In this document: one piece after another, positions 1,512 through 31,717 of the stretch
How positions within the stretch are numbered: the stretch's first letter is position 1
Layout: each line of letters opens with the position of its first letter
IMG/VR virus record: IMGVR_UViG_3300044846_001082
Location: 1 to 33,030 of that record
Length of the DNA: 33,030 bases
Source: a virus
Direction: 5' to 3' (one strand)
Notes under the pieces: model-generated
The model's database searches: none
Seen by the model: the letters and a program-made list of their open reading frames with translations, nothing else
What the model was told of the DNA's origin: nothing
Position numbers and translations under genes: made by a program

Positions 1512-1569
1512 TTGTTATATTAAATTAAATTTCTATATTTGCTACGTGAAACAATTAAAAAATAACGTA
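1512..1569 (+). promoter_or_regulatory. Repeated promoter-leader module, copy 1
   Basis: It has a -33 TTG at 1512-1514, a 19-nt AT-rich spacer, a -7 box TATATTTG at 1534-1541, four bases, then the 27-nt element beginning GTGAAACAAT at 1546 and ending in the ATG at 1570-1572. The box and spacing fit the Bacteroidota sigma-ABfr promoter consensus. The expected transcription start is at or next to the GTG, so the element is most likely the whole 5' UTR. Copies 2-5 are at 3527, 5086, 17199 and 31459. Confidence 0.82.
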
Positions 1570-3526: not shown

Positions 3527-3562
3527 TATATTTGCAAAGTGAAACAATTAAAAACTAACGTA
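3527..3562 (+). promoter_or_regulatory. Repeated promoter-leader module, copy 2
   Basis: The -7 box TATATTTG is at 3527-3534, followed by CAAA, then the leader from 3539 to the ATG at 3563. The AT-rich spacer (AAATTAAATT) is conserved with the other copies, but the -33 TTG is not present at the expected place (3505-3507). This leader copy differs from the consensus at one base (C at leader position 17) and is the best match to the antisense sequence at 7250-7271 (20 of 22). Confidence 0.75.
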
Positions 3563-4285
3563 ATGAAAAGACACGAATTTTTAGTAAGAGCTAGTAGATT
3601 AGGGGACTTAATGGCTAGCGATCGTAGCGGTAAAGGGTTAGGCCTTACGGCTAAAAAGGTAATTTTAGAGGCCGTACTATTTAATAAGTATGGTATAGAG
3701 CCTAAAGAAATTACTAATAAGTACCTAGAGAAAGGCCTAGCTAACGAGGTAGAGGGTATTAAATTAGCGAGTAAAGTATTAGGCTGGCTAGATATAGATA
3801 CCGATAAGCCAAAGGTAAGGCTAAGTAACGACTACGTAGTAGGCGAGCCAGACGTAAACGAGGCCGATCTAGTAGCCGATATAAAAAATAGCTGGGACGC
3901 CTTTACGTTTCCGTATGGATCTAAAGAAATACCTACAAAAGGGTACGAGTACCAACTATTAGCCTATTTATGGCTTACAGGTAAGAAAAAAGCGAGCCTA
4001 GTATATACCCTAACAGATAGCCCAGAGCATACTATTTTAGACGAAACTAACCGCCTAGTATGGAAAAATACGGCTAACCCTAAATACGCCCATTTAACGC
4101 AAAGCGAAATAGAGCAAGCTATAGAGGATAAAGTACGCCAGTCTTTAACTTTTAGCGATAAGATACCAGCCGAAAAGCGAGTAAAAGAGTACGTAGTAGA
4201 GTATAACGACGAGGCTATAGAAAAGATTAAAGAGCGTATAGATCTAGCGAGGCTAGAGTACGATAAGTTATATAACGAAATTTAA
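3563..4285 (+). CDS. YqaJ/RecB-type PD-(D/E)XK exonuclease
   Basis: 240 residues from ATG 3563. Nuclease residues are visible: GEPD with Asp97, then D106-I-K108 (the DxK of the PD-(D/E)XK fold) and Gln131-x-x-x-Tyr135 (QLLAY), a motif shared by RecB-family and YqaJ exonucleases. It should digest one strand of a duplex end so that the ERF protein can anneal the exposed strand. The start follows the repeated leader; the GTG at 3539 would add eight residues of leader sequence. The next gene begins 5 nt downstream. Confidence 0.85.
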   Translation: MKRHEFLVRASRLGDLMASDRSGKGLGLTAKKVILEAVLFNKYGIEPKEITNKYLEKGLANEVEGIKLASKVLGWLDIDTDKPKVRLSNDYVVGEPDVNEADLVADIKNSWDAFTFPYGSKEIPTKGYEYQLLAYLWLTGKKKASLVYTLTDSPEHTILDETNRLVWKNTANPKYAHLTQSEIEQAIEDKVRQSLTFSDKIPAEKRVKEYVVEYNDEAIEKIKERIDLARLEYDKLYNEI

Positions 4286-5085: not shown

Positions 5086-5121
5086 TATATTTGTCTAGTG
5101 AAACAATTAAAAAATAACGCT
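5086..5121 (+). promoter_or_regulatory. Repeated promoter-leader module, copy 3
   Basis: The -7 box TATATTTG is at 5086-5093, then TCTA, then the leader from 5098 to ATG 5122. The AAATTAAATT spacer is conserved; no TTG is seen at the -33 place (5064-5066). The iteron array upstream (4996-5035) may replace the -33 contact through an activator, or may hold a repressor. Confidence 0.75.
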
Positions 5122-5706
5122 ATGAAAAAAGAAACTTTAAGAGAATTTACCCTAATTACTAAAAAAGGACGCTACTATAACGACGTAGTAGCTAAGGATC
5201 GCGACGAGGCTACGGCTATTATAGATAGTTACCTAGAGCGTAACGACTGGGTAGCTAAAGTATGGACCAACCCTATAAGCGGTAAAGAGCTACTACAACC
5301 TACTAAGACGTTAAAAGAGTACAAACTAAACGAGCTACTACGTAACGACCTTAAAGAGGGTAAGCTAAAACTATCTAGCGCTTATAGCGAAAATAAGTAT
5401 AGCGAGGGTACGGCTGAGTACGAAAATAACGGCGAGTATATTTGCGTTAATTTTGAGTACGACTTTAGCTATACGCGTAGCGGTTACGATATTATACCAG
5501 AGTTTACTATAGACGTAATTAGTATATACGACTACGAGGGCGACGAGTATAATAATCTAGACCACGACGTAACGCGATTACTGGCTAACCAGATAGCCGA
5601 GGATATTAATAACGACTACGACGTAGAGCGCTGGGCTAACTGGGGCGTAGACGAGGATAGGCTATATTTTGAGGACGATACCCCAGCGTACCCTATAACC
5701 CTGTAA
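5122..5706 (+). CDS. Very acidic early protein, unknown function
   Basis: 194 residues from ATG 5122. The first 100 residues are mixed in charge. In the last about 97 residues (from TAEYENNGEYICVNFEYDFS) I count 25 Asp/Glu against 4 Arg and no Lys. The tail runs VERWANWGVDEDRLYFEDDT. No family is recognised; it is not an obvious ArdA. It is the first gene after the iterons and has its own copy of the shared promoter. A protein this acidic, made early, could be a DNA mimic blocking a host DNA-binding defence protein, but that is inference only. Confidence 0.75.
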   Translation: MKKETLREFTLITKKGRYYNDVVAKDRDEATAIIDSYLERNDWVAKVWTNPISGKELLQPTKTLKEYKLNELLRNDLKEGKLKLSSAYSENKYSEGTAEYENNGEYICVNFEYDFSYTRSGYDIIPEFTIDVISIYDYEGDEYNNLDHDVTRLLANQIAEDINNDYDVERWANWGVDEDRLYFEDDTPAYPITL

Positions 5707-6254: not shown

Positions 6255-6506
6255 ATGGAAAATACTAACTATTTAGAACTTTACGACCTCAAAGTAGGCG
6301 ACTGGGTACAAGCCCCTAACGACGAAAGTATAGGCGAGAATTTAAGCCCCGCTAATATCTACCAAGTAATAGAAATAAGCGAGGGGGCGCTATGTACGTT
6401 TTATATTAGCGACGATAACGGCGAGGCGATCGCTTGCGTAGTAGGATACCCAGACGCGCACCTAAACGGCCTTACTTGGCAAAAAGTACCAATTTTAAAA
6501 TTTTAG
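6255..6506 (+). CDS. Small protein of unknown function
   Basis: 83 residues. The pattern KVGDWVQAPNDESIGENLSPANIYQVIEIS with later beta strands suggests a small beta-barrel, as in many phage accessory proteins, but no family is recognised. It starts 2 nt after the preceding small ORF, and the next gene starts 2 nt after its stop. Confidence 0.62.
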   Translation: MENTNYLELYDLKVGDWVQAPNDESIGENLSPANIYQVIEISEGALCTFYISDDNGEAIACVVGYPDAHLNGLTWQKVPILKF

Positions 6507-6508
6507 AT

Positions 6509-7015
6509 ATGAAACCTAGCGTACAAACTTGGATAGATCAAGTAGAAAGCGGTAACGTAAAGCACAATACCGCCAAAGTATTAAAATACGTAAAAGAAAA
6601 AACGGCTAACTATTTTACCCGCGACTTATTTAACGAGGGCCAGATAGTAGGGGTAACTATAACCGAAATAAAAAGCGACCTTAGACTATTACACCCTACC
6701 GCTACGTCTTGTATTACTAACCTTACAGACGCGGGCCTAATTAAAGAAATAGGCCAAGCTAGAGAAACCTATACGCGTAACGATAAAGAGCGTACTACTA
6801 CTTATACGCTTTATACGTACGTATACGATCGTAACGAGCGTAACCGACTGGCTAAGAAAAGGGCCTTTAATAAATTTAGCGACTGGATAGACCGAGGTAT
6901 AAAAGAATTTAGCGACTATCTTACAGACGAGGACCTAGAAACTATAAAAGATATACGTAACGCCTGTAGCGAAATAAAAGAACAGGGTAAAAAATGGGGC
7001 TATAATGACAACTAA
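6509..7015 (+). CDS. Winged-helix-like phage protein
   Basis: 168 residues from ATG 6509. An open frame further upstream (from 6434) lies inside the previous gene, so the ATG 2 nt after that gene's stop is preferred. Residues 17-95 (HNTAKVLKYVKEKT... LRLLHPTATSCITNLTDAGLIKEIG... RTTTYTLYTYV) fit a winged-helix fold: helices, a recognition helix at TATSCITNLTDAG, then a beta hairpin. The C-terminal half is helical and charged. It may be a transcription factor or replication accessory protein; the target is unknown. Confidence 0.7.
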   Translation: MKPSVQTWIDQVESGNVKHNTAKVLKYVKEKTANYFTRDLFNEGQIVGVTITEIKSDLRLLHPTATSCITNLTDAGLIKEIGQARETYTRNDKERTTTYTLYTYVYDRNERNRLAKKRAFNKFSDWIDRGIKEFSDYLTDEDLETIKDIRNACSEIKEQGKKWGYNDN

Positions 7016-7202
7016 AAGCTATAATAGGCGTTACTATTTACATAAACGCGCTAAGCTAATTACTGAGGCTAAACTAGACGTAAGAAATAAAACTATATAC
7101 GTAAGTTACTCTATAGATCCTAGCGGTATAATATCGAATAAGTATATAAAAGAGCTAACGGCCTTATATGGCTATAGCCTACAGATAACTATAGATAGGT
7201 AA
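7005..7202 (+). CDS. Small basic protein, unknown function
   Basis: 65 residues, overlapping the previous gene by 11 nt. The N-terminus is rich in Arg, Lys and Tyr (SYNRRYYLHKRAKLI), followed by two short beta strands. No family is recognised. It is the last gene before the structured non-coding interval at 7203-7318. Confidence 0.58.
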   Translation: MTTKSYNRRYYLHKRAKLITEAKLDVRNKTIYVSYSIDPSGIISNKYIKELTALYGYSLQITIDR

Positions 7203-7210
7203 AAATTATT

Positions 7211-7218
7211 TACCTTTG
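7211..7218 (+). promoter_or_regulatory. -7 box TACCTTTG, candidate promoter of the small RNA
   Basis: It is an exact TAnnTTTG match 20 nt upstream of the GC-rich hairpin stem at 7238. No TTG is visible at the -33 distance, so the promoter is weaker than module copies 1, 4 and 5. Transcription would start near 7223. Confidence 0.45.
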
Positions 7219-7222
7219 CTAA

Positions 7223-7307
7223 TTAGCTAGAAATTTCGGGCGGGGCTAGCGTTAGTTATTTATTGTTTCACACCTGTAAAAGTTACCAAAGCCCCGCCCT
7301 TATTTTT
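7223..7307 (+). ncRNA. Candidate trans-acting antisense small RNA against the shared leader
   Basis: A perfect 10-bp stem, GGGCGGGGCT (7238-7247) with AGCCCCGCCC (7290-7299), encloses a 42-nt loop and is followed by TTATTTTT, giving a terminator-like end. The first half of the loop (7250-7271) is the reverse complement of the leader shared by five genes: 20 of 22 positions match copy 2. Counted over the 25 positions 7247-7271, 22 match copy 3 and 21 match copy 5. The second half has a 4-bp mini-hairpin (GTAA-AAG-TTAC). The complementary stretch is otherwise unpaired and would cover leader bases up to the start codon. The alternative is an inverted copy of a DNA operator. Ends are approximate. 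Confidence 0.5.
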
Positions 7308-7318
7308 AAATTTAAACT

Positions 7319-7567
7319 ATGAAAAAAGAAAACGTACAAAAATTAGTAAAAGAGGTAGGCTATATACTGGCTACGCTGGTAGTATTTCCAGTTATGTTAG
7401 GGCTATACCTACTAGATCGCTTACTATGTGTTATTTTGATCCACTTAGAAAGTAAACCGCTGGGCGTCTGGCAAAAAAACATAAGTAACGTTATAGGTAG
7501 CGTATACAGGGTTATAGGCGCGGGTTTAATTTACGGCCTTGTTAAATTGTTTCAATGGATCTTTTAG
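7319..7567 (+). CDS. Small two-helix membrane protein
   Basis: 82 residues with two hydrophobic segments, about residues 13-41 (VGYILATLVVFPVMLGLYLL...) and 57-82 (NVIGSVYRVIGAGLIYGLVKLFQWIF), and a short loop between them. There is no signal peptide. It could be an inner-membrane protein involved in superinfection exclusion or host takeover, but no family is recognised. The ATG follows the candidate small RNA's T-run, and the 3' end overlaps the next gene by 13 nt. Confidence 0.65.
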   Translation: MKKENVQKLVKEVGYILATLVVFPVMLGLYLLDRLLCVILIHLESKPLGVWQKNISNVIGSVYRVIGAGLIYGLVKLFQWIF

Positions 7568-9900: not shown

Positions 9901-9908
9901 TAACTTTG
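9901..9908 (+). promoter_or_regulatory. -7 box TAACTTTG upstream of the portal gene
   Basis: It is an exact TAnnTTTG match, 18 nt before the portal ATG. A TTG at 9875-9877 is 23 nt upstream, longer than the 19 nt of the module promoters but within the usual range. It is a candidate start point for head-gene transcription. Confidence 0.5.
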
Positions 9909-9926
9909 TAAATACTTAATAAAAAT

Positions 9927-17198: not shown

Positions 17199-17256
17199 TT
17201 GTTATATTAAATTAAATTTCTACATTTGTAAGGTGAAACAATTAAAAAATAACAAA
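17199..17256 (+). promoter_or_regulatory. Repeated promoter-leader module, copy 4
   Basis: TTG is at 17199-17201, with a 19-nt spacer, -7 box TACATTTG at 17221-17228, TAAG, then the leader from 17233 to ATG 17257. The last bases before the ATG are AACAAA in place of AACGTA or AACGCT. The spacer is nearly identical to that of copy 1. Confidence 0.82.
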
Positions 17257-17790
17257 ATGAAAACGCAAAATTTTAAACAAACGTACAAAGTAGGTCAAGC
17301 GGGTAGCTTTATTAACCAACTAATGAGTAATAACGAAAGCGCGCCAGTAGTAGGCGACTGGGCTACTATTTGCTTTTATAGCGATCGCGACGTATGTAAA
17401 GTAGTAGAGGTTACTAACGGCGGGGCGCGCGCGGTTGTAGAAATGTATAGTACTAGCGCTACAGAAGAGGGCCGTAAAATTGGTATGGGCCACCAAGACT
17501 GGCAACACGAGCCTACAGGCGCTTACGAAACTTACGTATATCGTCGCGGGGCTTGGTATACTGAGGGTTACGAGGTAGTATTTACTAAAGAATTTATCGC
17601 TAAGGCCGAGGCTGAGGGTAACGCTTGGGCTTTATGGCGTAGCCTTACCGAGGACCAGTATACGGCGATCTACGGCGACGACTGCCGACCTCAAAACGTA
17701 GTAGAGGGTATTACTAAAATGAAAAAAACATACTCTAAGGTACGCGTAATGTTTGGCGTATGTAACTACCACTACGACTGGTCCTTTTAA
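17257..17790 (+). CDS. Moron-like protein with its own promoter and terminator, unknown function
   Basis: 177 residues, about 20 kDa, soluble, rich in Trp, Tyr and Gly (VGDWATICFYSDRDVCKVVEV... RGAWYTEGYEVVFTKEF... NYHYDWSF). No family is recognised. It is flanked by terminators at 17091 and 17813 and driven by the same promoter-leader module as early genes, yet lies inside the late structural operon. That is the layout of a moron: a gene expressed independently, often in lysogens or early infection, for host fitness or defence. The start is ATG 17257; GTG 17233 belongs to the leader. Confidence 0.75.
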   Translation: MKTQNFKQTYKVGQAGSFINQLMSNNESAPVVGDWATICFYSDRDVCKVVEVTNGGARAVVEMYSTSATEEGRKIGMGHQDWQHEPTGAYETYVYRRGAWYTEGYEVVFTKEFIAKAEAEGNAWALWRSLTEDQYTAIYGDDCRPQNVVEGITKMKKTYSKVRVMFGVCNYHYDWSF

Positions 17791-31458: not shown

Positions 31459-31516
31459 TTGTTATATTAAATTTAATTTCTACTTTTGAAATGTGAAACA
31501 ATTAAAATATAACGCT
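31459..31516 (+). promoter_or_regulatory. Repeated promoter-leader module, copy 5
   Basis: TTG is at 31459-31461, with a 19-nt spacer, -7 box TACTTTTG at 31481-31488, AAAT, then the leader from 31493 to ATG 31517. The leader ends AACGCT before the ATG like copy 3. It drives the operon leading to the replication genes. Confidence 0.82.
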
Positions 31517-31717
31517 ATGAGTAAGCCAGTTTACCAGATCCTAAGAAACGTAGTAATAGTAAAAACTACAGATAAAGCCTATTTAATCAACTTTAAGAGC
31601 CGTAATTTATGGCTACCTATTAGCCTAGTTAGTAGCCTTTTCCCAGATTACGGGCGCGGTACTATAGATATGGTAGTACCAGTATGGTACGCGGAAAAAA
31701 ACGGGCTTATTTACTAG
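31517..31717 (+). CDS. Small early protein, unknown function
   Basis: 66 residues from ATG 31517, which follows the repeated leader. It is mainly beta strand (YQILRNVVIVKTTDKAYLIN... RNLWLPISLVSSLFP), compact and near neutral. First gene of the operon leading into the replication genes. No family is recognised. Confidence 0.65.
   Translation: MSKPVYQILRNVVIVKTTDKAYLINFKSRNLWLPISLVSSLFPDYGRGTIDMVVPVWYAEKNGLIY

Follow-up and report, generated by a model that had tools for sequence, protein, structure and literature searches.

A putative phage small RNA carries the antisense of a leader common to several genes of its own phage and co-varies with it among relatives

The locus at 7203-7318 of a phage genome raises the question of whether a single small RNA may be directed at several genes of the very phage that encodes it. 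The window, by which we mean the whole stretch of DNA analysed, is a virus record of 33,030 bases from IMG/VR (IMGVR_UViG_3300044846_001082, positions 1-33,030), and encodes terminase, tape measure, exonuclease, NinG, Erf-like annealing, single-strand binding and DnaB-like proteins. TAnnTTTG promoters, which follow the consensus recognised by the main sigma factor of Bacteroidota (PMC6847099), occur in the window and point, as far as sequence can tell, to a Bacteroidota host. The candidate small-RNA element fills a 116-nt gap between ORFs and has no ORF of its own; its parts and the gene behind it are as follows.

7211..7218, + strand: −7 promoter box TACCTTTG of the predicted small RNA, read from the sequence; a TAnnTTTG box stands at the corresponding place in many relatives.
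7223..7308, + strand: predicted small RNA of ~85 nt, its start inferred from the box and its end from the T-run, without transcript data.
7238..7247, + strand: 5′ arm GGGCGGGGCT of a 10-bp GC-rich stem, pairing perfectly with the 3′ arm.
7247..7272, + strand: antisense stretch complementary to five leaders, supported by match statistics and by co-variation with the own leaders in relatives.
7290..7299, + strand: 3′ arm AGCCCCGCCC of the 10-bp GC-rich stem, pairing perfectly with the 5′ arm.
7300..7307, + strand: T-rich run TTATTTTT, a putative intrinsic terminator tail; comparable tails occur in L190/L447, L413, L407 and L411.
7307..7314, + strand: TAAATTTA, which may be a degenerate −7 box of the gene that follows; in L190/L447 this place reads TAAATTTG.
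7319..7567, + strand: DRL gene for a small membrane protein of 82 aa, the anchor of the locus, traced by iterated HMM search.

By direct reading, the stem, the box and the T-run were each located where the initial annotation had placed them, as was the 22-base antisense at 7250-7271 in the hairpin loop (42 nt), the reverse complement of which is GTGAAACAATAAATAACTAACG. The true complementary block proved to be longer, spanning 7247-7272, and its end touches the final base of the 5′ stem arm. The RNA from 7223 to 7310 folds better than shuffled versions (z-score −3.27), and a free-standing unit, with its own promoter and terminator and without an ORF, is present in the window as well as in relatives, judged on sequence only.

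The antisense stretch is complementary to the leaders of five genes, each of which begins 4 bases after a TAnnTTTG box and ends at an ATG. In the list, the matches are to the element and the duplex energies are in kcal/mol.

1546..1569, + strand: leader 1 (box 1534-1541), match 19/22, duplex −19.3, predicted target.
1570-2388, + strand: gene behind leader 1, phrog_3628, unknown.
3539..3562, + strand: leader 2 (box 3527-3534), match 20/22, duplex −24.5, predicted target.
3563-4285, + strand: exonuclease gene behind leader 2, phrog_5715 exonuclease.
5098..5121, + strand: leader 3 (box 5086-5093), match 22/25, duplex −23.4, predicted target.
5122-5706, + strand: gene behind leader 3, no assigned function.
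17233..17256, + strand: leader 4 (box 17221-17228), match 18/22, duplex −16.3, predicted target.
17257-17790, + strand: gene behind leader 4, no assigned function.
31493..31516, + strand: leader 5 (box 31481-31488), match 21/25, duplex −24.1, predicted target.
31517-31717, + strand: gene behind leader 5, no assigned function.

The operon of leader 1 includes the Erf-like annealing protein, and that of leader 2 the exonuclease together with the single-strand binding protein. All five leaders are A-rich, are predicted to be nearly unstructured and carry A at −6, −12 and −13, inside the paired block. In copies 1 and 2 the predicted duplex takes up bases 4 to 28 of the 28 leader bases; in copies 3 and 5 it continues into the start codon. 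Each of the 24-nt leaders also starts with a GTG in frame with the ATG, so that automatic gene calls lengthen the five genes to a probably false GTG start. A leader of another kind was seen as well (window 9901-9926 and the portal gene start in relatives): in relatives, the gene after the terminase has its own conserved, late-looking leader, box TAACTTTG followed by CTTAAAATCTAATCA, which differs from the early cassette.

Over 22 bases, the element matches leaders 1 to 5 at 19, 20, 19, 18 and 18 positions, and over 25 bases it matches copy 3 at 22 and copy 5 at 21, which reproduces the counts given earlier (19, 20, 19 and 18 of 22; 22 and 21 of 25). The accompanying claim that such a match is not chance was upheld: when the five leaders were masked and the window was shuffled 400 times with dinucleotides preserved, the best shuffle matches were 19/22 (4 shuffles) and 21/25 (2 shuffles), and none of the 400 reached the 20/22 or the 22/25 of the real sequence. 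The shuffles by themselves merely place the chance probability below about 1 in 400, and relatives therefore had to decide. The first 15 bases of the match were not significant by themselves. In the duplex prediction that had been suggested as a check, the five leaders gave −16.3 to −24.5 kcal/mol, but in an RNAduplex ranking of all window sequences the leaders were not singled out by energy alone. In simple co-folding, folding of the full RNA competes with leader pairing, and two of the mismatches in the window lie within a block that does not vary among the five leaders. The next-best antisense match to the leaders, 19/25, falls at the 3′ end of the DRL gene (7541-7555) and is at chance level.

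DNA comparison of the window with the phage collection gave no match. A terminase search recovered many metagenomic phages with 61-70% identity to the terminase of the window, and searches with the proteins at 5098-5706 and 6434-7015 returned zero relatives. Because the window has no close relatives, the downstream DRL gene (7319-7567), named after a conserved Asp-Arg-Leu, was traced into metagenomic phages, where 117 homologs were found in phage loci (duplicates included). The 82-aa membrane protein is conserved throughout the phage group; it had no match in Pfam or PHROG, and no relative was found in cultured phages. Exact leader DNA patterns searched in the viral collection hit mostly coding sequence by chance, though they still yielded L190, and L447 was recovered by a narrower leader DNA pattern. 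No host genome for the window phage was found by terminase scans of genome contigs: the first scan gave zero matches, and the second gave a single closely related phage contig (from a bin labelled Rhodobacteraceae), which has the DRL gene and lacks the element.

In many lineages, the same locus has a box and a GC-rich hairpin, often with a T-run behind it, ahead of the DRL gene, and where the space upstream of DRL is roomy it mostly holds a GC-rich, long-loop hairpin, often with a T-run after it. Examples are GGGACCGGG/CCCGGTCCC with CTTTTT in L190, GGGGAGGC/GCCTCCCC with TTTTTT in L387 and L405, and CGCACAA/TTGTGCG with TATTTTT in L407; the stem sequence varies freely among lineages while the hairpin itself is kept. 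The promoter-hairpin-T-run architecture proposed from the window alone thus recurs at the same locus in many lineages, but the location of the antisense in the loop is not conserved: the window, L190/L447 and L345 have it in the loop, L412 and L361 have it both there and in the 5′ segment, and in L002, L407, L413 and L398 it precedes the hairpin, in the 5′ segment.

Compensatory changes were found in the stem. In the group of L387, L405 and L411, which have almost the same flanks, L405 and L411 differ by the exchange of two neighbouring stem pairs on both sides (A-U to G-C and G-C to A-U), and between L378 and L382 on the one side and L393 on the other one pair has changed from C-G to A-U. The shuffle controls are weak with three sequences each (66/500 and 163/500); a sliding control favours the stem.

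Two relatives with 93% identity to each other, L190 and L447, are most instructive on the unit itself; the terminase of L190 is 68% identical to that of the window. Here, box TAACTTTG, hairpin and T-run are followed by another box, TAAATTTG, five bases ahead of the start codon of DRL; the downstream gene thus has its own promoter after the T-run, which makes the RNA unit free-standing in these phages. Their hairpin loop reads AGCGTTAA(A/T)TTTTTAATTGTTTCACACC, the same antisense as in the window. L447 has two GTGAAACAATTAAA leaders, TACATTTG-CAAT-GTGAAACAATTAAAAAATTAAATT-ATG before an exonuclease-like start (MKHNWLIRAS) and TACATTTG-TTGA-GTGAAACAATTAAACATT-ATG, so that a further phage, well separated from the window, has the same complementary pair, and its RNA unit stands clearly apart from the next gene.

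The element is absent from many relatives that have the DRL gene. Lineages with a AAACAATTAAAAAC A-rich leader and no element had no convincing antisense copy, their best genome-wide scores being 9-12. In L009 the best antisense match falls in the DRL coding sequence; antisense sites in that coding sequence, taken up from secondary matches, were rejected after a negative result in the own-versus-foreign test described below. Other hairpins with long loops, upstream of the terminase in less closely related phages, were likewise discarded as tRNA-like clusters, coding sequence or an unrelated structured element. Two further noncoding regions were seen. One, at L013:9424-9540 and also in L004 and L023, is a conserved structured element of another kind, ATTGCGGG...CCCGCAAT, which encloses hairpins. 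It comes directly after a box (TATCTTTG or TATATTTG) and ahead of an HNH-like gene, ~0.5 kb upstream of the terminase; no antisense match to leaders was seen in it. At L029:5280-5450 (same region in L022, L037, L040 and L048), in more distant relatives, a noncoding cluster of GGCTCTGGTAAGCC / GAGGTTCGGC repeats, CCCCCT hairpins and tRNA-like sequence lies ~1.4 kb upstream of the terminase.

To evaluate whether element and leaders diverge independently, which had been named as a refutation, the element of each lineage (from the box to the DRL start codon) was scored with the leaders of that lineage and, for comparison, with those of all the others. Across eight lineages, the mean antisense score was 11.75 for own and 7.5 for foreign leaders, and the true element-leader assignment was the best of all 40,320 pairings. 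The rank was 1/40,320 without the window, 3/40,320 without two hand-added leaders and 3/40,320 with every automatically found leader, late ones included. The sense-orientation control was null in the same test (10,788 to 32,816 of 40,320), and random windows of the same phages gave z = 0.05 ± 0.74, compared with 5.3 for the element. L412 and L345 (86% terminase identity) are both in the set, which raises the foreign scores and makes the test conservative. The element boundaries and the early-leader set were chosen after some of the sequences had been seen, and the lineages are not fully independent. With these caveats, element and leaders diverge together, and complementarity to distant targets is kept by co-variation (1/40,320; sense control null).

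The matches in relatives are short (8-13 nt, some bulged) and A/T-rich. Leader and element, respectively, read ..ACAGAAACAAAAA.. and ..GAAACAAAAACA.. versus TGTTTTTGTTTCTGT in L002, TTAAACATAAAC versus GTTTATGTTTAA in L413, AAAACAGAAAA versus TTTTCTGTTTT in L345, AACATCAAACAT versus ATGTTTGATGTT in L361, and TCAAAACATC versus GATGTTTTGA in L398. The closest comparison is offered by L407 and L410 (95% terminase identity), which have most of the element in common. The 5′ end of the element is GACTAGTGTTTAGG in L407 and GACTGATGTTTAGG in L410, and the leader of an orthologous gene (MSTEEKLSFE / MSKEEKLSFE) is ..ACAAAACTAAAACAAGTCAA in L407 and ..AAATAAACATCAGTCAA in L410. In L410, element GACTGATGTTTA and leader TAAACATCAGTC form a 12-base perfect match, and both are different in L407. 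The own pairs reach −18.1 and −19.9 kcal/mol and the swapped pairs −15.7 and −16.2 kcal/mol. On comparison of the two genomes, the element and the leader of one orthologous gene have thus changed together.

Other readings of the element were weighed as well. One, that it derives from a sixth promoter-leader module, inverted onto the minus strand and decayed, can be regarded as refuted in practice. On that strand, GTGAAACAATAAATAACTAACG does follow a weak box TAACTTTT, but the six-base spacing, noted by the initial annotation as an argument against a sixth promoter, and the upstream region both misfit: a module copy would have TAnnTTTG 4 nt before GTG with TTATATTAAATT upstream, whereas the minus strand has its box at 6 nt and is without the TTATATTAAATT stretch that precedes most of the five modules. 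In relatives, moreover, the antisense follows a good + strand promoter and tracks the diverging leaders, which decay would not give. We also consider it very unlikely that the leaders and the element are binding sites of one DNA-binding regulator, with the inversion incidental. The leaders do overlap the transcription start region, a frequent location of operators, and co-evolution of sites with their regulator would likewise make the sites within a phage alike; the element, however, resembles the opposite strand only, with sense matching at background in all versions of the test, although an operator shared downstream of promoters should at least sometimes have the same orientation, and the hairpin with its compensatory changes would be left unexplained.

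A third reading takes the element as the 5′ leader through which the DRL gene is regulated: leaders of early mRNAs would pair with it and alter DRL termination or translation, and the gene would thereby sense early transcription. We consider this unlikely too, if somewhat less so. The evidence for pairing is symmetrical between element and leaders, the element-free lineages L375 and L009 have the same promoter directly before the DRL start codon, and several element-bearing lineages have no second promoter before the gene; as some of these also lack a strong T-run (L361, L398), the element may there be the 5′ leader of DRL as well. In nearly every lineage examined, however, the antisense stretch lies outside the hairpin stem, so that pairing would not obviously open a terminator; L190/L447 have a separate DRL promoter after the T-run; and a single short element facing several mRNAs with the same leader is a better fit to one regulator with many targets.

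Taken together, we regard it as probable that the phage encodes in this element a small RNA of ~85 nt, with a promoter and terminator of its own, that pairs in trans with a leader common to several mRNAs of the same phage. The sequence comparison shows that the antisense match to the own leaders is kept while both partners diverge, and that the hairpin is kept; selection on leader-RNA pairing is well supported by the same comparison, and transcription, timing and sign of regulation are inferred, without RNA data. The small RNA would be transcribed from the Bacteroidota-type promoter and ended by the hairpin/T-run terminator, and its exposed antisense stretch would base-pair in trans with the shared 5′ leaders. 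The predicted targets are mainly DNA replication and recombination genes, the exonuclease being the most consistent: its leader is matched in the window, L447, L002, L345, L398 and L367, and that of L412 has no match to its element.

By pairing, the RNA would occupy the leader, which is A-rich and has no Shine-Dalgarno sequence, as far as the start codon and block ribosome loading, and the duplex might also be marked for RNase cleavage, which is an inference. Initiation in Flavobacterium depends on adenines at −3, −6, −12 and −13, and structure impairs it (PMC6847099). Given this reliance, the location of A at −6, −12 and −13 of the leaders within the paired block suggests that pairing should block initiation. 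It could be argued that the RNA pairs with the leaders and activates or stabilises the early mRNAs without any repression, a reading to which we give very little weight; the sign of regulation cannot be read from sequence, and pairing at the 5′ end can protect mRNAs in other systems. The leaders, however, are nearly unstructured by prediction and offer no inhibitory structure to open, and the pairing reaches the start codon, where structure lowers initiation in Flavobacterium (PMC6847099).

For the favored blocking of ribosome loading, timing after the early phase is inferred from the element lacking the TATATTAA-type stretch (TTATATTAA) carried upstream by many early modules; one RNA, made at that time, would then shut off the whole early-gene set. 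Whether this amounts to a lineage-wide post-transcriptional early-gene shut-off, in which a single small RNA at a fixed locus and its cassette co-evolve as a private code, each RNA acting on the genes of its own phage and sparing those of a rival in the same cell, seems to us evenly balanced.

At the Rfam gathering score, the window had no match, only sub-threshold chance matches being found, and the c4 family (RF01695) was absent among the matches with E ≤ 5 in 7180-7340. No Rfam family, cultured-phage relative or published description of the element was found. The initial annotation knew of no described phage RNA of this kind in Bacteroidota, and our literature search found none either, which is weak evidence as it covered open-licence papers only; one review of the field mentions no Bacteroidota or Flavobacterium case (PMC12197685).

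Among known systems, the c4 antisense RNA of phage P1 and relatives (RF01695) is likewise a small antisense RNA of a phage controlling phage genes (P1 ant; PMC8201110), and is listed for Proteobacteria and phages (PMC2864571). The window RNA is unrelated to c4 in locus, structure and sequence, and while c4 controls an antirepressor gene in an immunity region, the window RNA matches a leader common to several replication and recombination genes at scattered positions. Lambda OOP RNA and other cis-antisense phage RNAs are also small antisense RNAs that lower phage-gene expression (PMC12197685). OOP, however, is transcribed opposite its target, whereas all five targets here are encoded elsewhere, so that the RNA would be trans-encoded, with partial complementarity to several targets. 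Closer in this respect are VpdS of VP882 and PreS, which are phage-encoded and act in trans on phage and/or host mRNAs (PMC12197685). Both are Hfq-associated and from gammaproteobacteria, and VpdS also affects host RNAs, whereas the predicted targets of the window RNA share one leader cassette and its putative hosts are Bacteroidota. Hfq is generally absent in Bacteroidota. The Kozak-like leaders of that phylum are not known to form a shared cassette or to have a matching small RNA. As initiation regions, the leaders of the predicted targets agree with the A-rich, 'Kozak-like', Shine-Dalgarno-free ones behind TAnnTTTG promoters in this phylum (PMC6847099). The comparison across lineages provides a built-in record of RNA-RNA co-evolution and, if the interpretation is true, the system would be a compact, testable example of gene expression timed solely by RNA, and would supply Bacteroidota with a naturally occurring set of orthogonal RNA-leader pairs. 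As a rule, phage antisense RNAs switch a single target, in well-studied hosts. In the present case, a regulon appears to be reached by one RNA by way of the leader that its genes have in common, in phages of a phylum whose ribosomes do without Shine-Dalgarno pairing.
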